Of a stretch of 64,000 nucleotides of DNA, positions 3,555 to 56,867 are shown piece after piece. Numbering within the stretch: position 1 is the first letter of the stretch; each line of letters opens with the position of its first letter. Location: NCBI RefSeq assembly GCF_001307765.1, contig NZ_LKBA01000004.1, forward strand, positions 434,001 through 498,000. The letters run 5' to 3'. The position numbers were made by a program, and so were the translations under genes. The DNA is from Aliiroseovarius crassostreae. GTDB lineage: Bacteria > Pseudomonadota > Alphaproteobacteria > Rhodobacterales > Rhodobacteraceae. Below the pieces are notes generated by a model. The model did no database searches. It saw only the letters and a list, made by a program, of their open reading frames with translations, and had not been told where the DNA came from.

Positions 3555-4289
3555 ATGAGCATGAATGCGACCCCGAAGAGAACCGACGAGACGCGCGATC
3601 CCCCCCACGATACCCCTCCTGGCCCCGCAGTAAATCCGCTGCCCCCCGTGGTGATTGCCCTGACCGTCTTCATGATCGGGATCGAAATCCTGTTTGCCGC
3701 AGGCAGTTCCGGTCTTATCGGCGGTCCCGAGGCACTTGGCTGGCGTATTTCTGCAATCGAAGACTGGGGCTTTCGCGCGCCCCTGTTCAGCTGGATGCTT
3801 GAGCGCGGCGATTTCCCACTGCGCGATCTCGCCCGCTTCGTGACCTATCCGTTCCTGCATCTCAGCTTTCAGCACCTCCTGTTTGTGCTGGTCTTCCTGC
3901 TGGCGCTTGGGAAAATGGTGGGTGAGGTCTTCTCGGCCCCCGCCTTCCTTGCGGTTTTCTTTGGATCCTCCATCGCGGGCGCACTTGCCTATTGGGCGGT
4001 GTGGGACAGCGCCATTGTGCTTTATGGCGGCTACCCCGCAGTCTATGGCCTGATCGGGGCCTATACTTTCCTGATCTGGACCAGGCTCGCCCTTACCGGC
4101 GGCAACCAGATACAGGCGTTCAGCCTGATTGGCTTTCTCCTGGGGATCCAGCTCATCTTTGGCCTTCTGTTTGGCGGTGGCATCGACTGGGTGGCTGAGC
4201 TTGGCGGCTTCTTTGCCGGTTTCGGCCTGTCGTTCCTTGTCAGCCCCGGTGGCTGGCGGCGCGTGTTGATGCGCCTGAGGCAGCGCTGA
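3555..4289 (+). CDS. Rhomboid-family membrane protein lacking catalytic residues (pseudo-rhomboid)
   Basis: A 244-residue polytopic membrane protein with about six hydrophobic segments. It aligns with rhomboid proteases: FLHLSFQHLLF matches the conserved TM2 block, GGYPAVYGLIG matches the GxSGxxxxLxG block, and AELGGFFAG matches the AHxxG block. However, the catalytic Ser position is Tyr160 (with Pro161 after it), the catalytic His position is Glu215 and the oxyanion Asn position is Val111. It is therefore predicted to be proteolytically inactive, like iRhom/derlin-type members. The first 25 residues are proline-rich and cytoplasmic. Automated pipelines would probably call it a serine protease; the residues argue against that. 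Confidence 0.8.
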   Translation: MSMNATPKRTDETRDPPHDTPPGPAVNPLPPVVIALTVFMIGIEILFAAGSSGLIGGPEALGWRISAIEDWGFRAPLFSWMLERGDFPLRDLARFVTYPFLHLSFQHLLFVLVFLLALGKMVGEVFSAPAFLAVFFGSSIAGALAYWAVWDSAIVLYGGYPAVYGLIGAYTFLIWTRLALTGGNQIQAFSLIGFLLGIQLIFGLLFGGGIDWVAELGGFFAGFGLSFLVSPGGWRRVLMRLRQR

Positions 4290-11344: not shown

Positions 11345-12286
11345 ATGTCATTGAAAGTTGCCCTTCAGATGGACCCGATTGATCGGGTGGATATTGACGC
11401 TGACAGCACGTTTCGCATTGCAGAAGAGGCGCAGAAGCGTGGGCATGAGTTGTTTTTCTATACCCCGGACCATCTGAGCTTCCGGGAAGGGCGGGTGATG
11501 GCCCGTGGCCATCGGATCACATTGCGCCGGGAATATGGCAATCACGTCACCATGGCGCCGGTCGAGGATGTCGATCTTGCCGATTGGGATGTGGTCTGGC
11601 TGCGCCAGGATCCTCCTTTCGACATGGGGTACATCACCTCCACCCATATCCTTGATATGATCCATCCGCAGACCTTGGTGGTCAATGATCCTTTCTGGGT
11701 GCGCAACTATCCGGAAAAACTGTTGGTTTTGCAGTTTCCTGACCTGACACCGCCCACGATGATTGCACGTGACTTCGAGACGTTGAAATCATTCAAGGAC
11801 AGGCATGGCGACATCATCCTGAAACCCCTTTACGGAAACGGCGGTGCCGGGGTTTTTCGTCTTGACCACAATGATCGCAACCTTGCGTCGTTGCATGAGC
11901 TGTTCACCGGTATCAATCGCGAACCGCTGATTGCGCAGAAATTCCTGCCGGATGTATCCAATGGTGACAAGCGTATTATCCTGGTGGATGGTGAGCCGGC
12001 TGGGGCTATCAACCGTGTGCCTGCCGAGGGGGAAACCCGCTCGAATATGCATGTCGGCGGCCGCCCCGAAAAGATCGGCCTGACCGAGCGCGACCGCGAA
12101 ATCTGTGCCGCGATCGGCCCGTTGTTGCGGGAAAAAGGCCAGATTTTCGTCGGCATCGACGTGATCGGCGATTACCTGACTGAAATCAACGTGACCTCCC
12201 CCACCGGCATTCAGGAACTGGAACGGTTCGACGGCACCAACACGGCTGAAAAGATCTGGCAAGCGATTGAGGCCAGGATCGGCTGA
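11345..12286 (+). CDS. gshB: Glutathione synthetase
   Basis: A 313-residue prokaryotic GshB that ligates glycine to gamma-glutamylcysteine using ATP. It begins with the family's [20 protein letters not shown] block, then a mid-region [14 protein letters not shown], then an ATP-grasp domain with [16 protein letters not shown] and a C-terminal [20 protein letters not shown] metal/ATP-binding strand. AAGGAG lies 6 nt before the ATG. It follows rsmI-yraN by 95 bp, the usual neighbourhood in Rhodobacteraceae. Confidence 0.96.
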
Positions 12287-12302
12287 TCGTCGGGGACATA
12301 AC

Positions 12303-13256
12303 ATGAGCCGCCGTCTCCTCTGGCTGAACCGCAGTCTGCGATGGACCGTCAAGCCTGTCCTGCGTCGGATGGGCCAGCCGACCCGCGTGCGCTGGGCACT
12401 GGATTTCGGAACAGAGCTTCTGTTTCGTCCGCCTCCGCAGACACAACGTTGGCCAGAGACGATTGCAGGCATCCCCTGCCTCTGGGTCACAAATCGTGCC
12501 CAGACCCACCCACCAGAACCCGAACGGGTGCTGCTCTATCTGCATGGTGGGGGGTATATTGCCGGCTCCCCCAAAGCCTATACCCACCTGCTTGCCCGCC
12601 TGGCCCGGTTGACCCGGCTGCAGGTTTGCGCCCCCAACTATCGCAAAGCCCCCGAAGCCCCCGGCCCGGCGGCGTTCGAGGATGCGGTGGCGGCGTTCAA
12701 CGGGCTGGTTGCAAAAGGATATGCCCCTGAAAACATCACCATAGGGGGCGACAGCGCAGGCGGCGGCCTTGCGCTTGCGCTTCTCGCACATATTAACGCG
12801 CAAGATATTGTTCCTGCGTCTGTTTTTGCATTTTCACCTTTTACGGATGCAAGCTTTTCGGGCGGTTCGATGCGTGAGAATGCCACCCGCGACCCGTTGC
12901 TGCCGCCCGCCCGCAAGGATCAGGTGGCGGACTGGATCCTTGCAGGTATGTCCCCGCAAGATCCGCGCATTTCCCCACTTTTTGCCAGCTTCAGCCCCCC
13001 CTTGCCGCCCGTGTTCCTACAGGTTTCCGACACGGAAATCCTGCGCGATGACACATTGCGGATGGCGGAAAAATTGAGGGCCGCCGGGGGGCGTGTCACC
13101 GTGGATCTCTGGCCTGATCCGCCCCATGTCTGGGTGTTCTTTTCCCGGCTCCTGCCGGAAGCGCGAGAGGCCCTGCGCCGGGTGGAAGCTTTTATCTCGG
13201 CTCAGGAGGGCCCTGTGCGGGCTGATCAGGAGGTTGAGGCAATCGACAACCGATAG
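12303..13256 (+). CDS. Alpha/beta hydrolase, hormone-sensitive-lipase-like esterase
   Basis: A 317-residue HSL-family (type IV) carboxylesterase-like hydrolase. The oxyanion motif HGGG is at residues 81-84, and the nucleophile elbow GDSAGG at 149-154 gives Ser151. The acid is likely in SDTEILRDD and the His in PPHVW near the C-terminus. The natural substrate cannot be told from sequence. It starts 16 bp after gshB and probably shares its transcript. Its last 31 bp overlap the end of the convergent yifB gene. Confidence 0.85.
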   Translation: MSRRLLWLNRSLRWTVKPVLRRMGQPTRVRWALDFGTELLFRPPPQTQRWPETIAGIPCLWVTNRAQTHPPEPERVLLYLHGGGYIAGSPKAYTHLLARLARLTRLQVCAPNYRKAPEAPGPAAFEDAVAAFNGLVAKGYAPENITIGGDSAGGGLALALLAHINAQDIVPASVFAFSPFTDASFSGGSMRENATRDPLLPPARKDQVADWILAGMSPQDPRISPLFASFSPPLPPVFLQVSDTEILRDDTLRMAEKLRAAGGRVTVDLWPDPPHVWVFFSRLLPEAREALRRVEAFISAQEGPVRADQEVEAIDNR

Positions 13257-41816: not shown

Positions 41817-42515
41817 TTATTCCTGCGATAGCAACGCATCCATGATCGCCAGACGCTCCAAGCGGTCCATTTTCCGGAACTTCTCAGACCAACGTGCCTT
41901 CTTTCGTCTGATGCGCTCGCGGTCGCGATAGTTCTCTCCAAGGTGGCTGTAATCGTGCAACTCAGCTGGCGGTCTAAAGTTCATCCAAAGGCATTCTGTG
42001 ACCTGCCCACGGCGCGTATTGGCCTGGTAGTCAACTCGATGGAAATGGCCCAAGGCGTCGTCATAGAGAGGTGAGCGATAGCCGGAGATCATCACCATGC
42101 ATCGGGCTTCGGTTAGGATGCTCAATAGTTGCTGATGATCCTCATCTGACATTTCGAAGTCATAGAGTTCACCGCCTTTTCGGGTACCCATCACATAGGG
42201 CGGATCGGCATAGATCAGGGTGTCGGGTTGGTCGATCAAAACCGATTCTGCCAACACCCGTTTCATCGAGGGCAGCAGCTCCAGTGCATCATCTTGAAAT
42301 AGGCGATATTCACAGCTCTTCGATCCAGCCAGATCCAAGCAAAGGCTGATAGCAGCCTCGCTACGATCAATGCCGATATTGGTTTCAGCCGGGCGCTTGT
42401 TGCGCAGAACCGCACCGGATCCAAGGAAGGCTTCGATATAAGCCTTGTGCGGAGGCATGTGGTTGATGATCCGTTGATAGATGCCCATGCCATTTTTGCC
42501 GCCGGGATAGGTCAT
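41817..42515 (-). CDS. DNA adenine methyltransferase (D12 class)
   Basis: 232 residues. N-terminal YPGGKNGMG and EAFLGSGAVL form the AdoMet site, and YADPPYVMG carries the catalytic DPPY at about residues 103-106. The spacing fits the alpha-class Dam/DpnIIA family. It methylates adenine N6 at unknown sites. The C-terminal RRKKARWSEKFRKMDRLERLAIM is a basic helix. It begins 4 bp inside a small unknown gene (ATGA) and is followed by com and dcm, giving a three-gene modification block inside the tail operon. Confidence 0.88.
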   Translation of the reverse strand: MTYPGGKNGMGIYQRIINHMPPHKAYIEAFLGSGAVLRNKRPAETNIGIDRSEAAISLCLDLAGSKSCEYRLFQDDALELLPSMKRVLAESVLIDQPDTLIYADPPYVMGTRKGGELYDFEMSDEDHQQLLSILTEARCMVMISGYRSPLYDDALGHFHRVDYQANTRRGQVTECLWMNFRPPAELHDYSHLGENYRDRERIRRKKARWSEKFRKMDRLERLAIMDALLSQE

Positions 42516-46729: not shown

Positions 46730-47926
46730 TCAGGACAGGCGGGCGACTTCGGCGACGGCCTCTTTCGCGAGTTCGGCGTAGTAGCCGGTGTTGCGGTTGA
46801 ACTGGAAGATCAGGCGTTGCAGCGGTGCCGGTGCTTCAGCGTCATAAGAGACAAAAAGATCACCGTTCAGCCATGTCTCTTTCGTGTTCAGCTTGGGATC
46901 AATCCAAACGTCACCACCAAGGGTCCAGCCCCGGCCACGCAGGATGCGTTGGAACCCGTTTACGGTTTCGGCGATATCGACCAAAAGCTGGGTTGAGAAC
47001 GGTTTGTCACGGAACGTTTTATGCGCACGTTCGATGCTGTCCATGGTGATGTCGTGGGTGCGCATCACCGGGAAGAACTTGTTCAGCGGTTCGGTCCAGC
47101 AGGTCTCGTTACCCCACAGGCGGTAGCCACCGTCATTGATGATCGTCGCAATTTGATTGCGGGTCAGGTAGTCGGCTTCGGTGTCAGGATCGCCATCATA
47201 GTATTCAATTGGGCGCGCCGTTCCGGTGATACCATAAAATGCATGATTGGACGGCGAGTGGTTCACGCCGAATTCCTTGTCCACGCGCAGAGTGATACCT
47301 GCAACCGAAGCCGAAGCTGGCTTAACCAGCGTCTGGCCGTTCACATAGACCTTCACGCCTGGGTCAATCATGTAGATCCGACTTGACCCCCAATCCTCGC
47401 GATACTCAAACGCGGCTTCCTTGGTGGTATTGGGGCCATCGGCCAAGATCATACCGCGCCGCTTTTCTGCGATACCACGGAACTCAGCCACGGTCGGATT
47501 GGCGCTGCCATCGACGCGCTGCGAGGTGAAGCCCGGTGCCAAATACAGACGCGGGGTAAGACCCAATTCAGATTGGCCGTGCTTCAGGGCGTGAATGCCG
47601 GTCATGGCACCAGCCGAACCGATCACATTTGCCAGGGTGGCGTTGAAGTCCACACCTTCTTCGACACGAACAGCTACCGCCTTCATACCGGTGCCTTCTT
47701 TGGTGACCTGGCGAATGATATCCGGACCCGTACCGGTTTCGCCCATGCCTTCCAGCAACTCACTGCCTCCGATCAGGGCCAGCGGCTCATCCATGGGAAA
47801 CTTGGCGTTATCGGCATCGGGTGCCGTGAAAACAAAACCGAGGGTGGACGTTTCGGAAATATCAACCGGGCGTCCACCCTTCAGGTTTTCAATCGTCGTG
47901 ATGCCCTTGTGGATAGACACGGTCAT
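46730..47926 (-). CDS. FI: Tail sheath protein FI
   Basis: 398 residues from the ATG at 47926, with GGAG 6 nt upstream (in-frame ATGs at 47938 and 47965 are less likely). TVSIHKGITTIENLKGGRPVDISETS and GFVFTAPDADNAKFPMDEPLAL at the start, LAPGFTSQR in the middle, and GGYRLWGNETCW, NKFFPVMRTHDITMDSIERAHKTF and DVWIDPKLNT at the C-terminus are classic P2-type sheath motifs. It makes the contractile outer layer. A 19-bp palindrome lies 58 bp upstream of the start. Confidence 0.95.
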   Translation of the reverse strand: MTVSIHKGITTIENLKGGRPVDISETSTLGFVFTAPDADNAKFPMDEPLALIGGSELLEGMGETGTGPDIIRQVTKEGTGMKAVAVRVEEGVDFNATLANVIGSAGAMTGIHALKHGQSELGLTPRLYLAPGFTSQRVDGSANPTVAEFRGIAEKRRGMILADGPNTTKEAAFEYREDWGSSRIYMIDPGVKVYVNGQTLVKPASASVAGITLRVDKEFGVNHSPSNHAFYGITGTARPIEYYDGDPDTEADYLTRNQIATIINDGGYRLWGNETCWTEPLNKFFPVMRTHDITMDSIERAHKTFRDKPFSTQLLVDIAETVNGFQRILRGRGWTLGGDVWIDPKLNTKETWLNGDLFVSYDAEAPAPLQRLIFQFNRNTGYYAELAKEAVAEVARLS

Positions 47927-47983
47927 GCGGAACTCCATAGCTCTTGTTGGAGCCATGGATCGCATGCCCGCCCGGCGTGGGCA

Positions 47984-48002
47984 TTGGTAGCAATGCTACC
48001 AA
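47984..48002 (-). promoter_or_regulatory. 19-bp palindromic operator-like site upstream of sheath FI
   Basis: TTGGTAGCAATGCTACCAA is a perfect palindrome (9-bp arms around a central A) in the gap before FI. A near-identical site lies before the protease gene at 56849-56867. The placement matches where Mu C activates late promoters PI and PP. Confidence 0.6.
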
Positions 48003-48070
48003 AGGTGGATTTAGATCTTGGGAGAGTGCTTTATCCCTACACCGGCACAGATGTAAGCAGCAAGACTTCT

Positions 48071-48460
48071 CTAGTGCGGAACCGAGAGAACCTCATCCAG
48101 GGAAGCATATTGCTCTCGGTATTTGAAAGAACCAAACTGCCCGCCGATGCGTACGGCGAGATAAAAGATGATGGCTACCACAATGGCTGGATAGCACTTC
48201 AATAGCCATAGATCGCCCACTTGCGTAACGGCATCCTTCAGCATGGCCAGCAGGAACTTGTCGTCACAGCGGCGGCGGTCATAGCGATCACCGCCCACCG
48301 CATAGCCGAAATCATGGTGACGCCAGCTTGCGGTTTGAAAGAACCAGGACGCGGCCCCGGTGATGAGCTGGCGCATCCAGTCCGGCATCCAGTAGGGGCC
48401 AACGCCATTGCCGAACTGGGCCTGTTCTTCCGGGGTCAGGGAGTGAAACGAAGGGCGCAT
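48071..48460 (-). CDS. Phospholipase A2-like phage protein with C-terminal membrane segment
   Basis: 129 residues. SWRHHDFGYAVGGDRYDRRRCDDKFL (residues 45-70, given by parts) has the PLA2 catalytic pattern: His49-Asp50 (HDxxY), Tyr53, then DDKFL with Asp66/67, resembling the HD-x2-Y ... D-x-F/L of parvovirus VP1 and bacterial PLA2. A single hydrophobic segment follows at about 88-105. It sits between the tail-fibre cassette and the sheath. It might attack host membranes during entry or lysis. The assignment rests on short motifs. Confidence 0.5.
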   Translation of the reverse strand: MRPSFHSLTPEEQAQFGNGVGPYWMPDWMRQLITGAASWFFQTASWRHHDFGYAVGGDRYDRRRCDDKFLLAMLKDAVTQVGDLWLLKCYPAIVVAIIFYLAVRIGGQFGSFKYREQYASLDEVLSVPH

Positions 48461-48461
48461 G

Positions 48462-48932
48462 TTATCCTGCTATCACCGGCCAGTGAGCATCGTCGGCAAA
48501 ATTGGCGGGGATCGGATCGCGGGCGGTCAGAACGTTTGACGCCGCGCGGATCGATTCAATCAGCGCATAGCCTGCAATGATGGCCTCGCGCTTTTGCTGG
48601 TCCGCGTCGCTCAGTTTGCCCCCCGCGTCCAGCGTGATCTGGGCGTTGATCATGAAGCTGGTGTAATTTTGCTGCCTCACCATTGCATCTTCCTGCGCGC
48701 TGACGCCCAGAACCAGCCAGATCCGGCGGCGGGCCTCGTTGTTCACGTCGGTGATCGTTGGCGGCGCAGACGCAATAATATCGGCCGCCGCAACATCCGT
48801 GACCACCCGCCAGCTCGCGCCTTCTGGCGTTATTGCGGCGGCCACATCCTCAAGGGTTTGATCCGCCCCGAGGACAACATCCGCAACAGATATCGATCCG
48901 TCAGCACGTTCGATCAAAATTCGTTTGCCCAT
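48462..48932 (-). CDS. Tail fibre-associated protein, unknown function
   Basis: 156 residues. It starts GKRILIERADGSISVADVVLGADQT and ends with NFADDAHWPVIAG. It is predicted mostly alpha-helical after residue 60. Position immediately after the tail fibre gene suggests a fibre-assembly chaperone, the usual occupant, but no chaperone motif is recognised. It is separated by only 1 bp from the next gene. Confidence 0.6.
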   Translation of the reverse strand: MGKRILIERADGSISVADVVLGADQTLEDVAAAITPEGASWRVVTDVAAADIIASAPPTITDVNNEARRRIWLVLGVSAQEDAMVRQQNYTSFMINAQITLDAGGKLSDADQQKREAIIAGYALIESIRAASNVLTARDPIPANFADDAHWPVIAG

Positions 48933-49987
48933 TAGCCAAATACTCCTATGTTAATGACCCCAGCGTCTTCCTTGCTCCCATCGCGATCGTTGGTGACGAT
49001 AACGCGAAAAGAGCTGGTTGTGAAAAGACGCGCCGCAGCAAAACAGGCAGTACTATTCGAGTCATTGTCATGCCGCGCACCTGCCAGCGCCATGTAATTG
49101 CTATTCGGCAGCTCAGTGGCAAATCTCACATCATAGATGCCCGCTGCGACCCGTACGATAGACGACACGTTGGATGAAGCGTTGATTGTCACGCCGTTCA
49201 TGCCATTCCAGCGCGCCCACGCCATGAGCTGGCCATGCGGAGCGGTCAAAGCCGTTACCTCAGCCTCAGATGTCACCAGGGGATACCAAGCACCCCAAAC
49301 ACCGCCATTCTTTTCCCGGCGCATCGCCTTGGTGTCGGCGCTGCTATCACCCGTAAACTGGTGTGCAGTGACCGTAATCCATTTGTCATCATGGGCTACA
49401 GCAGTTCCCAACCACCAATCAGTTCCTGGTGAATTGGCGGCGTTATACCCCTTAAAGCCACCACATTCAGAAATGTCATCCCAATCAGTGATCAGCTGAG
49501 CGTAAGGCCCCAACCGGGCAGGCAAGCGCGCGTCAGGCACCGTGCCGGCGTTCAGATTGGATGCGTCGCGATAATAGGAGCCATGCTGGCCGCTCAATTT
49601 GTCGGCATTCGCCGCCGTTTCAGTGACCCCCAGCTTGCCCGCAATCTGGGCCACCAGCGCCGCCAGTTCGTTGTCGTTGTCACCAATGGCCACCGCCAGC
49701 TCGTTCAGCGTATCCAGCGCCGCCGGTGCCCCGTCGATCAATTGGTTGATCCGCGTGTCGATGTCACCCGTGATATCCAGATTTGCTATGTTGGCCTCAA
49801 CACTCTCAACGCGTTGCTTCAGATAGTTGGTCCGAGCAAGCAGGTATAGCGCATGAAGGTTCCACAACCCTTGTTTGGTCGTGGGATCCCAGAGCCCACC
49901 GGATTGAGGCCAGCCGTCCATAATCATTGGAATTCCAGGCCACGTCTCATCGACAGTTTCGGGCAAAAGCTCAAAGTTTTCAGGCAT
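48932..49987 (-). CDS. H: Tail fibre protein
   Basis: 351 residues. The N-terminal stretch (MPENFELLPETVDETWPGIPM) probably attaches to the baseplate. A collagen-free phage_fiber segment (ITGDIDTRINQLIDGAPAALD, TLNELAVAIGDNDNELAAL) is followed by NADKLSGQHGSYYRDASNLNAGT and a C-terminal receptor-binding region rich in Gly, Asn and Thr. Short for a fibre, so the phage may use a small tip. It overlaps gpI by 8 bp. Confidence 0.85.
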   Translation of the reverse strand: MPENFELLPETVDETWPGIPMIMDGWPQSGGLWDPTTKQGLWNLHALYLLARTNYLKQRVESVEANIANLDITGDIDTRINQLIDGAPAALDTLNELAVAIGDNDNELAALVAQIAGKLGVTETAANADKLSGQHGSYYRDASNLNAGTVPDARLPARLGPYAQLITDWDDISECGGFKGYNAANSPGTDWWLGTAVAHDDKWITVTAHQFTGDSSADTKAMRREKNGGVWGAWYPLVTSEAEVTALTAPHGQLMAWARWNGMNGVTINASSNVSSIVRVAAGIYDVRFATELPNSNYMALAGARHDNDSNSTACFAAARLFTTSSFRVIVTNDRDGSKEDAGVINIGVFG

Positions 49988-50576
49988 TCAGATCTCCAAT
50001 ATTAAAGGTTGAACCAACCCAGACTGTTTCAGTCCCGACAGACCACGGTTCGCCTACTGCATAGTTGACACGATCAACCATGACCCGAGTGAGGTCACAA
50101 AAAAGAGGAGCGACCGCTTCGATTATGCCAGCCAGATATCTTAACTGGTCAGGCGTGATTTCTTGTCGAACGATTACCCAAAACTCATTCCAGCTCTGAG
50201 GGCCGCCAACACTCTGTTCGGGACCAGCAACAACCCAATCCGCGCCAACCAGTGCAGATTTTCCTTCAACAACGACTGCATCACCGTAACCTGCATATTT
50301 CAGAGCAAGTTTGAGACCCTTTCGAGTGCCCATCCAAAGATGCAGTTCACGTGAATTGCGCAGCATGGCACGTTGAAGATCTTCGGGCCATTGTGGATCA
50401 AAGAAGTTGGCCGAATAGGCATGCGCCAGGAACGGCAGCGCTTCGACCGGACAAGTGTCCGCATTCCAGAGTGTTTCCAGGACCGTGGGGAAATCAAACA
50501 CAGCCCGAACGCAGCGCTCCATTGCGCGCTCAAAGCGGGTACTGGATTTGGAGATGGCGGACTGATCAAAGGGCAT
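49980..50576 (-). CDS. I: P2 gpI-like baseplate/tail protein
   Basis: 198 residues from ATG 50576 (a second in-frame ATG, 50585, lies inside the J gene end). ERAMERCVRAVFDFPTVLETLWNADTCPVEALPFLAHAYSA at the start is the family pattern with Trp-Pro-rich elements, and YAVGEPW near the end. It bridges the baseplate and fibres in P2. It overlaps gpJ by 11 bp and the fibre gene by 8 bp. Confidence 0.88.
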   Translation of the reverse strand: MPFDQSAISKSSTRFERAMERCVRAVFDFPTVLETLWNADTCPVEALPFLAHAYSANFFDPQWPEDLQRAMLRNSRELHLWMGTRKGLKLALKYAGYGDAVVVEGKSALVGADWVVAGPEQSVGGPQSWNEFWVIVRQEITPDQLRYLAGIIEAVAPLFCDLTRVMVDRVNYAVGEPWSVGTETVWVGSTFNIGDLNA

Positions 50577-51423
50577 AACCACCATCCGTCAACGTAATAC
50601 CCGAGCAATAGGCCGCCTGGTGATCCGAACAGACGATATCAGCAACCGGTGCTGCAATGATTGCGTTCTGGACGCGCGGATCCGCGAGTGCACCCTGGAT
50701 ACCGTGAAGGGTGATATCACGGCCAAGGGCATGCTGTTTTACCGTGAAGGTTTCAAGGCTTGCCCGGCAATCGGCAAGAGCGGTGGCCCGATCCGTGCCA
50801 GGATAAAAGCGCAGCTCGGCCTCGATTGTGTATTCCGGCACCTCGGCTGAAACAGTTTCCAAAGACGAGCACAGCGGAATGCGCTCTTCGACATAGGCGT
50901 GGATTTGCGCCAGGAGCTCGCCCGTAGGAATGCCGCTGCCCGTCTGGGCAAGAATGTAGATCCGGCACAGCCCGTCATTATTGACTTTGATTGGCTTCAC
51001 GCCCTTTACATCATTTGGGGCCGCATCGATAGCATGGGCGACATACATGCCTTCCGGCCCAGCCGTGGACAGTTTCTCCTGTGCGAGAATGGCCCGGCCT
51101 TTCAGATTGTCGTCGCTTTCTCCATCAACTCTGACGACCCCAAGGTTAAATGCAAAGTTATCTGTCCCCGTCCCCCAGGAATGCGCCAAAGTGTTCTGCC
51201 GCGCGTCGTCATTGGCTTTGGCCTTTGCGCGAACACTTTCCGACGCAAGAAGCCGAAATTGGTTGTAGAGCGGTTCGGTTTTGATTTCGAGCTCTTCAGC
51301 CGCTTCGGGAAACTCTTCTAGAAAGATGCTTTTCAGCCGTTCAAATTCATCATCAATTGACAGGATCTCGACGGTCTCTGGAAAGTGAAACTTGCTGATA
51401 TCAACTGCGGAATACTCGCTCAT
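50566..51423 (-). CDS. J: P2 gpJ-like baseplate assembly protein (baseplate wedge)
   Basis: 285 residues. EILSIDDEFERLKSIFLEEFPE, DDARQNTLAHSWGTGTDNFAFNLGVVR, STAGPEGMYVAHAIDAAPNDVKGV and the C-terminal VCSDHQAAYCSGITLTDGGY motifs fit the baseplate_J family, which forms the wedge ring of contractile tails. It overlaps gpW by 4 bp (ATGA). Confidence 0.92.
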   Translation of the reverse strand: MSEYSAVDISKFHFPETVEILSIDDEFERLKSIFLEEFPEAAEELEIKTEPLYNQFRLLASESVRAKAKANDDARQNTLAHSWGTGTDNFAFNLGVVRVDGESDDNLKGRAILAQEKLSTAGPEGMYVAHAIDAAPNDVKGVKPIKVNNDGLCRIYILAQTGSGIPTGELLAQIHAYVEERIPLCSSLETVSAEVPEYTIEAELRFYPGTDRATALADCRASLETFTVKQHALGRDITLHGIQGALADPRVQNAIIAAPVADIVCSDHQAAYCSGITLTDGGYAL

Positions 51424-51755
51424 ATCACAGCCCCATAAATTCGTTGCTGGCCGGTTTTGACCTCGACTAGGTTAAGCGAGATCTCGGCATGTCCGTTTTC
51501 GTCAAAATGCGCAGTCTCGATACCCGTAAGCTCGACGCGCGGTTCGTATTTGTCGATCGCGGTTGCCAGCGACACGCAGTAATCCAGGAGTGTGTCGGCA
51601 TCGGACGGACGGTCCTGAAGGTCCGGAATATCCGTTCCATCATCCCGCTCCTCGATGCGGGTTTTCCGGCGCATCTTCACAAGAGCGTCCAGAGACTGGA
51701 CGATATGATCCCACCCCGAAAGCCGCCGCCCCGTATGCCGACACATCCCAGCCAT
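51420..51755 (-). CDS. W: gpW-like baseplate protein (T4 gp25 family)
   Basis: 111 residues. GRRLSGWDHIVQSLDALVKMRRKTRIEERDDGTDIPDLQDRPS gives the GPW_gp25 pattern, then ATAIDKYEPRVELTGIETAHFDENG and a C-terminal strand. It anchors sheath to baseplate. It is coupled to J by ATGA and follows the 51759 gene closely. Confidence 0.9.
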   Translation of the reverse strand: MAGMCRHTGRRLSGWDHIVQSLDALVKMRRKTRIEERDDGTDIPDLQDRPSDADTLLDYCVSLATAIDKYEPRVELTGIETAHFDENGHAEISLNLVEVKTGQQRIYGAVI

Positions 51756-51758
51756 GGC

Positions 51759-51968
51759 TTATGCCTTGGCAGGCTTTGCCGATGCCGGTTTGGCGTCAGT
51801 CTTTTTCTTTTTCAGAGTGTGGGGCTCGTAATACTTGGCCTCATCTTGGGTCAGGTCGATTTCGTCACCTTCTTCTTTCAGGTGCGGTCCCCACCAGGTT
51901 TGCACTTGGAACACGTATGTGTGCTTCACCAGTTTGGGATCGGTTTTGGTTTTCGCCTTATCCGCCAT
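51759..51968 (-). CDS. Small Lys-rich phage protein of unknown function
   Basis: 69 residues. The N-terminus is Lys-rich (MADKAKTKTDPKLVKHTYVF), followed by VQTWWGPHLKEEGDEIDLTQDE and a Lys/Ala/Pro-rich tail. Very small basic ORF between V and W with a good AGGAG ribosome site. Comparable small genes occur at this position in Mu-like phages. No function can be given. Confidence 0.6.
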   Translation of the reverse strand: MADKAKTKTDPKLVKHTYVFQVQTWWGPHLKEEGDEIDLTQDEAKYYEPHTLKKKKTDAKPASAKPAKA

Positions 51969-51979
51969 TTGAGTTCTCC

Positions 51980-52516
51980 TTAAACAGGCGTTCCGGTTTG
52001 GACGGGGCCAGACAAGACCCCGGAATGTTTGTGTGTGTCGCCAATGTCAGTACCGTTATGGGCGACCTTACCGCCATTGATGGCAAGCCCGGCTCCGGTG
52101 ATCGAAAGTGTGACGCCCCCCACAGTGAGCGTGACACCACCGCCGATCACTTCCACCGCAACGTCGCCGAGACTGAAGGCCAGAGCATCGCCATTGGCTG
52201 ACGGCGGGGCATTCTCATCTGTAAAGCCACCATGCACGGCCAGAGAGTTGCCGTTGATTTCACCGCCAGGCGAAAGCACGGTCATGAGTTCACCCACGCT
52301 GGGTGGGTTCCATGTCTTGCGGGCACCGGCGCGCTCGGTCCAGGGGATCCATGGCGTAGAGAACGAGCTGCCATTGTCACCCAAATCAACTTTCACCCGC
52401 TGATTAGCGGCATCAACCTCAATCACCTTGCCAGAGCGAACCACATTCGCCTGTTTGCGCTGAAGCTCAGCGATAGATCCCACGATCCGGGCGATCTGTG
52501 TTGCAAGATCCGCCAT
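51980..52516 (-). CDS. V: P2 gpV-like baseplate spike protein
   Basis: 178 residues from ATG 52516, overlapping the previous stop as TGATG. An N-terminal OB-like domain (VRSGKVIEVDAANQRVKVDLGDN, TPWIPWTERAGARKTWNPPSVGE) is followed by a beta-helical SANGDALAFSLGD region and a C-terminal DTHKHSGVLSGPVQTGTPV with the HxH iron-binding tip typical of gpV. It is the membrane-piercing spike of the contractile tail. Confidence 0.9.
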   Translation of the reverse strand: MADLATQIARIVGSIAELQRKQANVVRSGKVIEVDAANQRVKVDLGDNGSSFSTPWIPWTERAGARKTWNPPSVGELMTVLSPGGEINGNSLAVHGGFTDENAPPSANGDALAFSLGDVAVEVIGGGVTLTVGGVTLSITGAGLAINGGKVAHNGTDIGDTHKHSGVLSGPVQTGTPV

Positions 52517-53052
52517 CACATACCCTCCGGAAGCTGGGTGATATCAATGTCAGTGTTGAGCACGGTTCCTTCAGAGATCACCGCTGCAGGATCGTCAAAA
52601 TCAGCGAGGCCCTGACTTTTCCCAAGGCGCATGGTCTGCGTCCAGGACACTGAAAAGAGTGCAAGCCCGGTATCATCCACCTCGCCGGTATAAAGCACAT
52701 CGATGCGCTGGTTTGTGGGGTCCCCAACGGGCATGTCATCCACGAAGCGGTTCATCTCGATCCGCTCGGCCACAGCTTGTACAAGATCGATGCCTTCCAG
52801 ATCCCGATCGCGCCCCTCGGTCATAATAAATACTGCAAATGCACCATTAAACTGCCGGGTGCTGTCTGCTTTTGCCTGTGTCTTCGGTGCACCAAGGAAG
52901 GCAACGCGAAGCGCAGGGGTTTTGAAACTCTGCCGCGCGATCTCCGACGCATTGAACTTGCCCGGGGTAATCTCAAGATCACGGACCGCATCGAGCTCGG
53001 GTGCCTTGGCAAGATCCGCCTTGATGGCCTTTAGAAAATCCGAGATCTTCAT
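52516..53052 (-). CDS. Mu gp37-like phage protein
   Basis: 178 residues. DFLKAIKADLAKAPELDAVRDLE, NGAFAVFIMTEGRDRDLEG and NQRIDVLYTGEVDDTGLALFSVSWTQTM are the pattern of the Mu gp37 family (DUF1834), of unknown tail-head-joining role. It overlaps gpG by ATGA and the gpV start by one base (TGATG). Confidence 0.75.
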   Translation of the reverse strand: MKISDFLKAIKADLAKAPELDAVRDLEITPGKFNASEIARQSFKTPALRVAFLGAPKTQAKADSTRQFNGAFAVFIMTEGRDRDLEGIDLVQAVAERIEMNRFVDDMPVGDPTNQRIDVLYTGEVDDTGLALFSVSWTQTMRLGKSQGLADFDDPAAVISEGTVLNTDIDITQLPEGM

Positions 53053-53528
53053 TGCAGGAGCTCCTGGACAAAGTCCGTGACCACGCCTTCAATCTCCGCC
53101 GCGTTGTCGGGGCTGACCCCGATGTAAGGCCGGGCTGGAATGGTTACGCTCTTTGCATAGATCGCCTTATTACCTGCCATGAAGCGCAGAAACTTGGCCT
53201 TCTTCGGCTTGATGACCCCGCCAAAGTGATGGATGGCCGCGTAGATCAACGGTGATCCCACCTTGATCTCACCAGCCCCCACCACATAGTCGATGCTGTC
53301 ATGCAGTGCGCCGGTTTCATAAAGCGGGGCAGAAGCTTTGCGATTATGCGGCCACAACTCACCATTGGGCCCGATCTTTTCCGATCGCAGGCGGCGGCGG
53401 GTTTGAAGTTGCATGAGGCGACCAATGATCTCCAGGAGCTCAAAGCGATCCCAGCCGGCCACGCGTTCTACTGCGCGTGTGGCCGCACTCAGGCCATTGA
53501 GCTGCATATCCATGGCGAGATCAGCCAT
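53049..53528 (-). CDS. G: Phage virion morphogenesis protein (Mu gpG-like)
   Basis: 159 residues. The conserved QTRRRLRSEKIGPNGELWPHNRK, then GSPLIYAAIHHFGGVIKPKKAKFL and IPARPYIGVSPDNAAEI define the virion-morphogenesis (phage_tail_S/gpG) family, needed for head-tail completion. It is coupled at both ends (TGATG with gp36, ATGA with gp37). Confidence 0.9.
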   Translation of the reverse strand: MADLAMDMQLNGLSAATRAVERVAGWDRFELLEIIGRLMQLQTRRRLRSEKIGPNGELWPHNRKASAPLYETGALHDSIDYVVGAGEIKVGSPLIYAAIHHFGGVIKPKKAKFLRFMAGNKAIYAKSVTIPARPYIGVSPDNAAEIEGVVTDFVQELLQ

Positions 53529-53953
53529 CAGGAACGCCCCCGGCCAAATCGGCGCGGCCGCGCGATGAAATCCGCACCCGATGCAGCGCCACTGGTGGAC
53601 CCTTCCACCACCGCACGCGGTTCATCCACCCCAAGTCCAACAACGCCTTTACTGATCTTGGTCAAAAGTGAAATCGCCTGTTCATACCGGGTTTCAATGG
53701 CATTGGTCAGCCGGGCATGGGTGTTCGCCAGGATATAAGCAGCGATATCGATGCAGGGGCGGCGCAGGGCTTTGGGTGATCCAGCCAGCGGCAGGTCATA
53801 TTGCTTGGAGAGATAGCTATCAATCTCAGCCGAGGCATCTTCCAATGCCTGGTCAACAGTCTCTTCCGGGCTGTCAACATCCACGGGCGTGATATCCGAG
53901 AGAAACTCGGCGCCGTAGATTTTCACAATGTCAGCACGGGTCGCGTAGGGCAT
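53528..53953 (-). CDS. DUF1320 family protein (Mu gp36-like)
   Basis: 141 residues. YATRADIVKIYGAEFLSDITP, DQALEDASAEIDSYLSKQYDLPLAG and LRRPCIDIAAYILANTHARLT are the DUF1320 pattern, of neck/head-joining role in Mu-like phages. The C-terminus is Ala/Arg-rich and ends RPRRFGRGRS. It is followed by gpG. Confidence 0.9.
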   Translation of the reverse strand: MPYATRADIVKIYGAEFLSDITPVDVDSPEETVDQALEDASAEIDSYLSKQYDLPLAGSPKALRRPCIDIAAYILANTHARLTNAIETRYEQAISLLTKISKGVVGLGVDEPRAVVEGSTSGAASGADFIARPRRFGRGRS

Positions 53954-54035
53954 GGATCACCTGTGTGAAAAAGAAGGCCGCCCCGCCGCTGCAGCCTTCC
54001 TACTGATCGCGCCTGTCGGCGGGCGCGGCTGGTAT

Positions 54036-54299
54036 TCAGTCTTCGTCTGCGAGGGTCACGCGCAGAAAGCGATCTGCTTTGATGGCTTTCATCTGCTCTT
54101 CGCTCAGATCATCCTCGTAGACATTCTTGCCTTCAAACGGCCAACGAATATCGGCACGGCGGTGCCCGCCTTCATGCACACTCGAAATCGACAGGAGCAG
54201 ACCCTTTTTCTCGTTCTCGGGTGCGTCTTGGTCTTTCGGGGGCTCCGGAGCTTTCTTGTTCGCGTTGCCCTTGGATTGGGTTTGGGACTTCGTCGCCAT
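54036..54299 (-). CDS. Mu gp35-like (HI1506-related) phage protein
   Basis: 87 residues from the ATG at 54299, preceded by AGGAG. The first third is charged and low-complexity (Lys/Gln/Pro), then SVHEGGHRRADIRWPFEGKNV and a helix DLSEEQMKAIKADRFLRVTLADED fit the gp35/HI1506 group. In Mu, gp35 lies in the same place after the capsid gene. Role unknown. Confidence 0.75.
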   Translation of the reverse strand: MATKSQTQSKGNANKKAPEPPKDQDAPENEKKGLLLSISSVHEGGHRRADIRWPFEGKNVYEDDLSEEQMKAIKADRFLRVTLADED

Positions 54300-54373
54300 C
54301 TCAGTTCTCCTAGTGGTCGGTTGTTGAAGCGGGCCCCGAATGCGCAAGAGGCCCGCTCTGACAACCGGCCAGC

Positions 54374-55288
54374 TTACGCAGCAAGCCAGGGGGTCATCAT
54401 CACTTCGGCTTTGCCGTAGTTCTTGTTGTCTTTGCCGTTATCCAGGCGCTTGACCTTCACAATCTCGTCCGCGTCATCTTCCAGCTCCGGCGGAACCACC
54501 AGAAGGTTCGGAATGATATTCAGCGGACGCCCGGTATCATCCTTCAGGCTCGCCATGGCGGCACGCGCAGCCTTGAAGTTTTCAGCGGTCAGCGGTGCCT
54601 TGGACGCGAAGGCCAGTTGCCAGAAGGAATACCCAGCTTCACCACGCGATTTGGCACCGAACAGGATTTCATCATTCAAGAAGGTGTGTGCCGACTTTGA
54701 AGGGTCATCGTGTGACACCAGCTCGGGATCTTCCCGGTTCTGGTAGATGATCGGCAGGACCGCTTGGGACGTGCAAAGCAGATACCAAGCCGGGCCAGCA
54801 CCATCCTGGAAGTTGGAAACCGAGACCTCTTCACCATCCACCAAAACCGGGTGATCGGTGTCGAAGAAATTCTGACCATCGAAACACCGGGCGACAAAAC
54901 CCTTCTTCAGGGCAGAAAACACCAGTTCGTCAGGGTGGTTCGCGGCGTTTTTGCCGAGACCTTTGAAAGCGATCTTGTAGGTGCCAAGTTTTCCGTCGGC
55001 GATCGCGTCACGATCAACAGCGACAGTGCCTTCAAACTTGCGGTTCTTGATGGTGTAGGCGTTTTCGGTCAGGCGATGGATGAACCGTTCGCCGATCCAT
55101 TCGCGCATGCCAGGAATGGCACCCAACCATTCATAGGTTTCCATACTGGTGGTCGAAGTCACCTCTTCGGCGATCTTCTTCCAGGTGGGTTCAATGGCGT
55201 CAAAAGCGTTTTGGAAGGTCGCTTTGAAGCCGGTGGTGGCAGCGGCAATGGCCGCGTGGGAGACAGAGGTGTGACGTTTAACGGGCAT
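54374..55288 (-). CDS. T: Major capsid protein (Mu gpT-like)
   Basis: 304 residues. FKATFQNAFDAIEPTWKKIAEEVTSTTSMETYEWLGAIPGMREW, GTVAVDRDAIADGKLGTYKIAFK and KAAMASLKDDTGRPLNIIPNLLVVPPELE-like C-terminal segment fit the Mu gpT major-head family. It forms the icosahedral capsid. It is distinct from the tail tape measure (also T in P2 nomenclature). Confidence 0.95.
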   Translation of the reverse strand: MPVKRHTSVSHAAIAAATTGFKATFQNAFDAIEPTWKKIAEEVTSTTSMETYEWLGAIPGMREWIGERFIHRLTENAYTIKNRKFEGTVAVDRDAIADGKLGTYKIAFKGLGKNAANHPDELVFSALKKGFVARCFDGQNFFDTDHPVLVDGEEVSVSNFQDGAGPAWYLLCTSQAVLPIIYQNREDPELVSHDDPSKSAHTFLNDEILFGAKSRGEAGYSFWQLAFASKAPLTAENFKAARAAMASLKDDTGRPLNIIPNLLVVPPELEDDADEIVKVKRLDNGKDNKNYGKAEVMMTPWLAA

Positions 55289-55329
55289 AGTTGTGTCCTT
55301 GATTGGGAAGTTGGGTTAGGCGGTCAGGA

Positions 55330-55722
55330 TCAGAATTCGATCCAGACCTGTCCGCCTTCGACTTCGCGCAGCGTGCCGGCCACAGAGCGAGTGCCACCAC
55401 CATCGGTCTTTGCCACGGTTTCGTCGTCGACCAGATAGCAAGGCTTGCCAACATCTGCGTTGGTCAGCTCGTCAGCGCCGGCGGAATTCAGATAGCGGAA
55501 GTTGCCACGGCGGACCTTGACTTGGGTGTCACCTGCGGCTTCATCCACGCTGTGTTCTGCGCGACCAACCGTGACCAGGCCAACTGCCGCATGGCCTTTC
55601 TTTGCCAGCCCGGCATCCAGGCACGCGATTGCGCCTTTGTTGATTTTAGCGCCGGGAGCCAGCGCATAGCTGAGAAATTCGCCGGCGCGGTGGAGCGTGT
55701 TGCGTTCACCAGTGGTGGGCAT
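55330..55722 (-). CDS. Capsid cement/decoration-like phage protein
   Basis: 130 residues from ATG 55722 (GAAGGA, 7 nt spacing). Begins GERNTLHRAGEFLSYALAPGAKINKGAIACLDAGLAKKGH and ends TRSVAGTLREVEGGQVWIEF; the DUF2190-like fold pattern of small head proteins between the protease and the capsid gene fits best. Position supports a decoration role. Confidence 0.6.
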   Translation of the reverse strand: MPTTGERNTLHRAGEFLSYALAPGAKINKGAIACLDAGLAKKGHAAVGLVTVGRAEHSVDEAAGDTQVKVRRGNFRYLNSAGADELTNADVGKPCYLVDDETVAKTDGGGTRSVAGTLREVEGGQVWIEF

Positions 55723-55757
55723 ATTCAAATCCTTCCTTCAGATAAGGGAGCGCAGGG

Positions 55758-56270
55758 TTAGCTTGCCGCTTCGTCGGCGGCGCGCTGTTTCAGGTAATCC
55801 TCTTCGGAGATCCCGAGTTGGGCACAGGTTTCACGCTCAAGCTCGGTCAGCTTGCTGGTGCCTTTGCCAAGATCGCCATCATCGAGGTCAGACGGGGCCA
55901 CAACCTTCGGCAGGGTGGCGCAGAGGGCTTTGACCTCTTCGAATCCTTCATCGCCGGATTTGGCGATTTTGACATAGTGGGCCTTCGAGGCCGGGGCGAT
56001 CTTGCCCGCTTCGACCGCACCGTCGATCAGTGCTTCCACCTCTTCGTCGCGCTTTTCTGCCTGCGCCGAGGCCAGTTCACCTTCGGCCTTTTCTGCGCGG
56101 GCCATTGCCTGATCATAGTCAGCACGGGGCATGTAGTCTTTCGAAGACGGGACGGTTTGGGCGGCTTTGGCCGAGGCGAGCTCGGTGTCCTTTGTTTTGA
56201 TCGCGTCAAGGATCTGAGCCTCGGTCGCGTCATCATTCAGGCCAAGCGCGGCGGCAATGGCTTTCAGCAT
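55758..56270 (-). CDS. Z: Internal scaffold protein nested in I (Mu gpZ-like), predicted
   Basis: ATG at 56270 (Met182 of I) is preceded by GGAG 8 nt upstream and would yield about 170 residues beginning MLKAIAAALGLNDD. In Mu and lambda, protease genes carry such an internal start for the assembly scaffold. The C-terminal half here is purely helical, as expected. Not separately proven. Confidence 0.55.
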   Translation of the reverse strand: MLKAIAAALGLNDDATEAQILDAIKTKDTELASAKAAQTVPSSKDYMPRADYDQAMARAEKAEGELASAQAEKRDEEVEALIDGAVEAGKIAPASKAHYVKIAKSGDEGFEEVKALCATLPKVVAPSDLDDGDLGKGTSKLTELERETCAQLGISEEDYLKQRAADEAAS

Positions 56271-56813
56271 TTTGGGATCTCCATCTGGGGTTTGCGCCCG
56301 GGCAAGGGCTTTCATTTGAAACGCAGGGCGATTGACCAGAGCAACGGCATCCAGAATGCCCACTTCTTTGGTTTTCTTGTGGGCGCGGAATTCCGGGCTC
56401 ACAAAACGCCATTCACGTTCGGCAATCTGTTTGGCAGCACGGATCGTCCAGGCGACCTTTGCCCAAACCTGCCCATCACGCACTTCAAGCTCTTCGATCC
56501 AACCTGCCGCCGTCTGGTCCCCGTTATCATCGGGCGCGTAAGACGACAGATGGTCATAATCCACCATGATCGGCTTCGCCTTTGACACATCTTGGGCCGC
56601 AACGAAGGCATCCGGGTCGGACATTTTCCACGCCCGGCCATCCACTGCGTTCAGCTCCGGGCCTGACGGAAAAATCTGGATCCAGTCCGGAGCTTCCGGG
56701 GTGGCGGCATCGTCCAGCTCAAATGCCAGGGCACGTTCCAGAAAACAGGAGGCGCCCAGCTCGGCGCTGGCAAGATGCGAGATCAAATCGGGGGTTGCTT
56801 GGTGCGTATTCAT
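55758..56813 (-). CDS. I: Mu gpI-like prohead protease
   Basis: 351 residues. N-terminal region to about 175 is a herpes-type Mu protease domain: PDWIQIFPSG, PIMVDYDHLSSYAPDDNGDQTAAGW with the catalytic His, EREWRFVSPEFRAHKKTKEVG around the Ser, then VNRPAFQMKALARA. The C-terminal half is a helical coiled-coil scaffold rich in Glu/Ala/Lys. It processes the head during assembly. A second start at 56270 would make the scaffold alone, as in Mu I/Z. A 19-bp palindrome lies 36 bp upstream. Confidence 0.9.
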   Translation of the reverse strand: MNTHQATPDLISHLASAELGASCFLERALAFELDDAATPEAPDWIQIFPSGPELNAVDGRAWKMSDPDAFVAAQDVSKAKPIMVDYDHLSSYAPDDNGDQTAAGWIEELEVRDGQVWAKVAWTIRAAKQIAEREWRFVSPEFRAHKKTKEVGILDAVALVNRPAFQMKALARAQTPDGDPKMLKAIAAALGLNDDATEAQILDAIKTKDTELASAKAAQTVPSSKDYMPRADYDQAMARAEKAEGELASAQAEKRDEEVEALIDGAVEAGKIAPASKAHYVKIAKSGDEGFEEVKALCATLPKVVAPSDLDDGDLGKGTSKLTELERETCAQLGISEEDYLKQRAADEAAS

Positions 56814-56848
56814 GGATCATGAAATGACCCATCTCCCAAATCCGCACA

Positions 56849-56867
56849 TTGGTAGCGTTGCTACCAA
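56849..56867 (-). promoter_or_regulatory. 19-bp palindromic operator-like site upstream of gpI protease
   Basis: TTGGTAGCGTTGCTACCAA differs from the sheath-operon site by two bases and is flanked by CATTGGTAGC and CTACCAAA on both copies. It lies 36 bp before the I start, in a 347-bp gene-free gap. Candidate binding site for a Mu C/Mor-like late activator. Confidence 0.6.

Follow-up and report, generated by a model that had tools for sequence, protein, structure and literature searches.

The stretch analyzed here, hereafter the window, comprises 64,000 nucleotides (nt) of Aliiroseovarius crassostreae DNA (assembly GCF_001307765.1, contig NZ_LKBA01000004.1, forward-strand positions 434,001 to 498,000) and holds part of a Mu-like prophage in which two exact 19-base-pair (bp) palindromes, TTGGTAGCAATGCTACCAA at 47984-48002 and TTGGTAGCGTTGCTACCAA at 56849-56867, occur exactly where the first-pass annotation placed them. 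A third exact copy, TTGGTAGCGCCGCTACCAA, lies at window position 65892-65910, 1.9 kb past the right edge and ahead of an endolysin gene. The evidence presented below makes it very probable that all three palindromes serve as operators for a Mor/C-type late activator encoded by the prophage itself. The features on which the argument turns are as follows, where L004 positions become window positions by adding 62000.

L004:3912-4322, minus strand, activator gene (PHROG 836), outside the window
L004:3892-3910, minus strand, dyad 1, outside the window, ahead of the endolysin gene
L004:3227-3838, minus strand, endolysin gene (GH108), outside the window
56849..56867, minus strand, dyad 2, ahead of the head protease gene and subsequent head genes
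55758..56813, minus strand, head maturation protease gene (PHROG 328), with its ATG at +2 of the predicted transcription start site
47984..48002, minus strand, dyad 3, TTGGTAGC-N3-GCTACCAA, ahead of the sheath-to-tape-measure genes
46730..47926, minus strand, tail sheath gene (PHROG 23), with ATG 47926 as its likely start

Read along the minus strand, gemA is followed by the activator gene, dyad 1, the GH108 endolysin, terminase and portal genes, an F-like head gene and dyad 2, from which the order continues with the protease, the major head protein, neck and baseplate genes, a fibre gene and dyad 3, and then with the sheath gene, a PHROG 55 gene annotated as head closure and the tape measure gene. 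The activator gene overlaps the upstream gemA by 4 bases, and a single base separates its stop codon from dyad 1. Dyad 2 is followed by 35 nt before the protease ATG (56813) and dyad 3 by 57 nt before the likely sheath ATG; the longest sheath open reading frame (ORF) begins at 47965, but this start would lie upstream of the predicted transcription start, which makes 47926 the likelier one.

The remark that no other full copy was noticed holds within the window, where a search allowing up to 3 mismatches found no further match (0.14 expected; at least 2 in 1 of 100 shuffles); the third copy had been overlooked because it lies outside the window. Across 82 kb the next best matches reach at most 12 of 16 arm bases. 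Of the 19-bp pattern the genome, 3.72 Mb in 27 contigs, has three copies in all, and of the reversed control none; the looser core GGTAGC-N2..5-GCTACC is confined to the same three places, but its reversed control occurs 6 times, so the core in itself is not rare. What goes beyond chance is that all three copies fall within one 18-kb stretch, each immediately ahead of an operon.

An activator gene of the C/Mor type had been predicted beyond the right edge, and the gene found there encodes a 136-amino-acid (aa) protein matching PHROG 836, "late transcriptional activator", at E 8.8e-18 over residues 5 to 135, a whole-protein profile match. The three other PHROG 836 matches in this genome are weak (4.6e-4), each has an internal stop, and a genome-wide search with Pfam Mor gave nothing above cut-off. 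The PHROG 836 profile hits Mu C as well (2.1e-11), and an alignment of 13 proteins including this one, compared by hhalign with Mu C and Mor, gives a probability of 96.6 and E 4.9e-10, so that by profile-profile similarity the activator is related to Mu C and Mor. Among 30 aligned proteins, 17 match Pfam Mor at E 0.01 or better, this protein not being one of them. The predicted structure has a predicted local distance difference test (pLDDT) score of 86.4; in a second fold comparison the aligned span was mainly residues 79 to 131, the helix-turn-helix (HTH) part, and the fold searches gave no full-length match. A single-protein sequence search of the PDB led nowhere.

Related prophages carry the motif at corresponding positions. 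A GGTAGC dyad stands after the activator gene and before the protease gene in L158 (UBA2553), L159 (Paenihalocynthiibacter), L160/L072 and L162/L069 (Cognatishimia), with 13 or 14 of 16 bases agreeing at the L159 sites, and a presheath copy is also found in L072 (15 of 16 bases) and L069. IMG 2597490355 has the dyad before the protease gene (L007) and before the sheath gene (L014), contigs that do not include its activator region, and the L161 contig, which reaches the first site only, has the dyad there. From dyad centre to protease ATG the distance is 44 to 45.5 in all six phages of this clade that reach the protease gene. In L069, at all three sites, and in L161, at its one site, the dyad spacer is 4 bp against 3 bp in the A. 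crassostreae prophage, L158 and L072; the half-site is the same and the recognition helix nearly the same, the spacer shift being a coordinated 1-bp change.

The exact motif occurs in 2 of 295 family genomes, one per genus: this one and G096, where a related prophage (L072) has it behind the activator gene and again ahead of the protease gene. In IMG/VR it occurs in 14 stretches. Two of these (L013 and L016) come from a contig nearly identical to our prophage (activator 99%; L005 is from the same contig), and L007 and L014, both from IMG 2597490355, presumably represent one related phage. Six AT-rich contigs (L006, L008, L011, L012, L015 and L018) share one common sequence around the motif, which in L011 and L012, the two examined, lies inside a 674-aa ORF, and L009, L010, L017 and L019 have no match to any query protein; these AT-rich and unmatched stretches mean that the motif alone is not diagnostic. 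L019, a 4.3-kb viral contig, carries it at 44-62 and 4235-4253 with the same near flanks, perhaps the terminal overlap of a circular genome.

Beyond this clade, other Alphaproteobacteria carry a dyad within about 50 bp of the stop codon of a PHROG 836 activator gene and again at the protease position (taken to include the equivalent place where the protease query found no gene), with a sequence that differs between clades: CCCGGAC, GCGGAC, CCCGCA, CCCACCG, CCTACA, CCCGAAA, TGACA and GCGGAAC types were found. The survey started from the 70 of 295 genomes with a PHROG 836 match at E 0.001, from which 54 regions were taken (weak HTH-only matches and further tandem copies being left out), and a further 20 of 36 matched rows were taken as loci. 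The resulting hand-curated motif table, with half-sites chosen by hand, has 27 loci, including L007, L014 and the single-site L059 and L161. Cognate dyads are present in 21 of 35 Mu-like loci, defined as those of 10 kb or more in which portal and gpF were found. Two sites were curated at 23 loci; in 17 of these the arms match at 16 of 16 bases, and in 19 no random anchor out of 40 reaches the score. Among phage isolates, POA1180 has the same dyad at three sites, one behind the activator, one ahead of the protease gene and one ahead of the sheath gene; RR1-B has four, which precede the gene downstream of its activator, the protease gene, the tape measure gene and a baseplate gene; and RcapMu and RcWaterboi have two each, at comparable places. 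The idea that the motif is a signature for late control in this phage group was thus right for related prophages, which have it at the same positions, and too broad for other clades, which have dyad sequences of their own. L071 (G126:C55:12743-14288) carries three tandem PHROG 836 matches, which is unusual for a single-activator system.

Alignment of the 54 sites of the 27 loci by their dyad centres shows, downstream, an A (67%) and a T (61%) that stand out four bases apart; the mirror side has no such peak. A at +33 together with T at +37 from the centre occurs at 30 of 54 sites, against a mean of 1.87 at other offsets (next best 6) and a maximum of 7 of 54 on the mirror side; in a nonredundant set of 13 loci the count is 17 of 27 (other offsets, mean 0.96, next best 3). 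The same sites served both to find this offset and to count it; in isolates, scored afterwards, the pair is present at 10 of 14 sites, the RC1 and ThpS-P1 sites among these having been picked by eye. Such spacing agrees with the -11A and -7T in a sigma70 -10 element, which would put the dyad centre near -44, and the Mor element of the Mu Pm promoter is centred at -43.5 (PMC4390567). The Mor/C-type promoter geometry, a dyad near -43.5 with a putative -10 element, is thus predicted across the sites. In the A. crassostreae prophage the A is present at all three sites, and the candidate elements are as follows.

L004:3864-3869, minus strand, putative -10 element of dyad 1 (lys), TAATTT, with both A and T
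47956..47961, minus strand, putative and weak -10 element of the sheath promoter, GATCCA, with the -11 A but without the -7 T
56821..56826, minus strand, putative -10 element of the protease promoter, CATTTC, with the -11 A but without the -7 T

A signal on one side only and at a fixed distance is not what would be predicted if the dyads were intrinsic terminators, that is, RNA hairpins that close the upstream operon. Hairpin-forming repeats directly after a stop codon do recall terminators, as does the run, such as GTTTT, that follows the dyad in the CCCGCA clade and in part of the GGAC clade, and in those clades a double role, with the dyad acting as a terminator too, is possible. No T run follows any of our three dyads, however, and a terminator needs complementary arms, not one arm sequence throughout a phage and another in the next phage. 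We consider the terminator explanation very unlikely.

The similarity of recognition helices follows that of half-sites: a Mantel test gives r 0.67, or 0.40 as a partial correlation once the N-terminal part is taken into account. With 13 nonredundant loci the values are 0.51 and 0.39 (p 0.0006 and 0.0022); the half-sites were entered by hand and kinship was handled by the nonredundant set and the partial Mantel test only, so that relatedness remains a confounder of these correlations. Examples of the pairs are HRTTVFRR with GGTAGC, RHVRR with GGAC and RT[VI] with GACA. Operator and recognition helix appear to have co-diverged, giving each phage clade its own code words, and the different palindromes that relatives carry at the same places make this pairing testable. 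The pairing also bears on whether the dyads might be operators through which a phage repressor, or another phage regulator, silences the late genes. HTH repressor-like genes do exist farther along the prophage (L004:10846-11571 and 11836-12636), but the 82 kb that include them hold no extra copy above the level given earlier, and the dyad tracks the PHROG 836 helix and adjoins the PHROG 836 gene in many phages, which leaves a repressor operator with only the slightest chance of being correct. Sites of a host regulator are scarcely conceivable, with nothing found in favour of them, all three genome copies inside the prophage, and the second of the family genomes with the exact motif also having it in a related prophage. 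On these points all three explanations were rejected.

Several observations nevertheless weigh against the palindromes being operators of a Mor/C-type activator. Our protein alone scores 13.7 bits against Pfam PF08765 (Mor), whose cut-off is 24.9, and is therefore not filed as a member. A profile search of the PDB puts Mu C (E 0.0049) and Mor (E 0.0087) below unrelated helical and HTH proteins, and the Foldseek match of the model to Mor (1RR7) is not significant (E 2.6). At the promoters themselves, the -7 T is present at only one of our three sites, the lys site. Among the surveyed loci, 14 of the 35 Mu-like ones have no curated cognate dyad, and four of the curated two-site loci are not separated from their own null (5/40 for L055, 3/40 for L057, 11/40 for L061 and 2/40 for L158). 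The high-scoring L083, L139 and L154 were left out of the motif table, and four lower-scoring extra matches, in L055, L061, L074 and L138, were dropped. In isolates, the RR1-B score was reached by 1 of 60 in the null, a search of StopSmel, Aussie and Mwe-Yong1 found no repeated dyad, and the dyads of RC1/RS1 and ThpS-P1 are imperfect only. A less symmetric 24-mer is common to four of the 14 loci without a curated dyad (L063, 21/24; L076, 20/24; L093, 19/24; L148, 23/24), no null having been computed for it.

Taken with the activator gene where it had been predicted, the motif at the same positions in relatives and the -10-like signal at a Mor-like distance, the C/Mor-type operators first suggested for two sites are supported for three. 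In the mechanism that we propose from these data, the activator, encoded between gemA and the first operator, would be made in the early operon, and a dimer of it would bind each dyad at about -44, the dyad standing in for a -35 box, and would recruit or activate sigma70 RNA polymerase at three late promoters, for lysis and packaging, for the head, and for sheath to tape measure. This single activator would do the job of the two-step Mor plus C of Mu.

The geometry also predicts where the protease message begins. With +1 placed at 44 to 44.5 from the dyad centre, and an ATG counted if it opens an ORF of 60 aa or more, an ATG falls on +1 or +2 (43.5 to 46 from the centre) at 14 of the 24 sites in the protease position but at just 1 of the remaining 30 (Fisher p 7e-6), and POA1180, RC1 and ThpS-P1 agree with these 14. 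In several clades, transcription of the head protease gene would accordingly begin on the ATG or one base before it and yield a leaderless mRNA; our own protease ATG, at +2, predicts a nearly leaderless message. The GGAC-type loci and L138, L140, L141, L142, L152 and L155 have no ATG at +1 or +2 and would have leaders or other protease starts.

Both the likeness to Mu and the differences from it are informative. The third late promoter of Mu, PP, is named for, and lies before, baseplate gene P. The lys and protease sites here match Mu Plys and PI, but the third site, before the sheath gene, does not match PP, and the earlier statement that PI and PP drive exactly the two gene groups of the window was mistaken, the Mu sheath gene L lying between I and P in the Mu gene order. 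As with Mu C, whose promoters are Plys, PI, PP and Pmom, the activator gene is directly followed by the endolysin gene, and Mu C likewise has promoters at lys and at protease gene I (PMC4461284). As with Mu Mor, the gene follows gemA with an overlap; Mor, however, acts at the middle promoter Pm, whereas the dyads here are at late genes. Pm has 5-bp repeats with a 6-bp spacer (PMC4390567), against clade-specific half-sites of about 5 to 10 bp with spacers of 1 to 6 bp here. The middle genes of Mu have one activator, Mor, and its late genes have another, C (PMC4390567), and here a single activator was found; that one gene holds both the Mor position, after gemA, and the C position, before the endolysin gene, suggests a cascade without a middle phase. 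In Mu itself, a long dyad, AAATAACCGGCA-tcc-TGCCGGTTATTT, at L156:1181-1207 overlaps the C gene at its end, and a CATAAT lies about 22 nt away from the dyad centre; this is not the -44 geometry, and the dyad could be a terminator or belong to Plys.

Closer to our prophage, the Rhodobacter phage RcapMu has a related activator, RcapMu27 (PHROG 836 type), a related gene order and two cognate dyads, one behind the activator gene and one ahead of the protease gene, with half-site CCCCGGAC; its protease gene is predicted to be leadered, with the ATG 61.5 from the centre, unlike in our clade. RcapMu27 is annotated as similar to Mu gp21, and no such sites are among the 59 features listed. The phage vB_ThpS-P1 (KT381864) has a gene annotated as hypothetical, vBThpSP1_033 (L166:12949-13338), which encodes a 45.7% relative of the L055 activator and directly precedes an amidase gene.

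The action of C and Mor at Mu late and middle promoters is already known (PMC4461284, PMC4390567), and their structures, matched in the PDB profile search, are already solved. A literature search by title and start of abstract found no account of the dyads of this group, nor of activator-linked dyad divergence, the single-activator layout or a leaderless protease start; the RcapMu paper (Virology 2011), which could mention the dyads, was outside its coverage. Elsewhere in the prophage, DnaA-C-like, MuB-like, transposase (DDE_2) and ParB-like genes lie past gemA, and a DNA methyltransferase-like gene (PHROG 56) lies past the tape measure gene at window positions 41817-42515.

Our findings suggest a DNA signature by which late promoters and their activator may be located across a broad phage group from sequence alone, and they single out vB_ThpS-P1, which is stated, together with one other phage, to lack a Mor activator (PMC5488378), as having a Mor-like gene and imperfect sites. 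The many natural activator/operator pairs may allow a recognition code to be derived and tried as orthogonal switches, and the leaderless head protease mRNA is a sharp and cheap prediction. For the transposable phages of Alphaproteobacteria at large, we think it somewhat more probable than the contrary that one Mor/C-type activator replaces the two-tier Mu cascade, with private operators that can be read from the recognition helix and with many head protease messages that would start exactly on their ATG.

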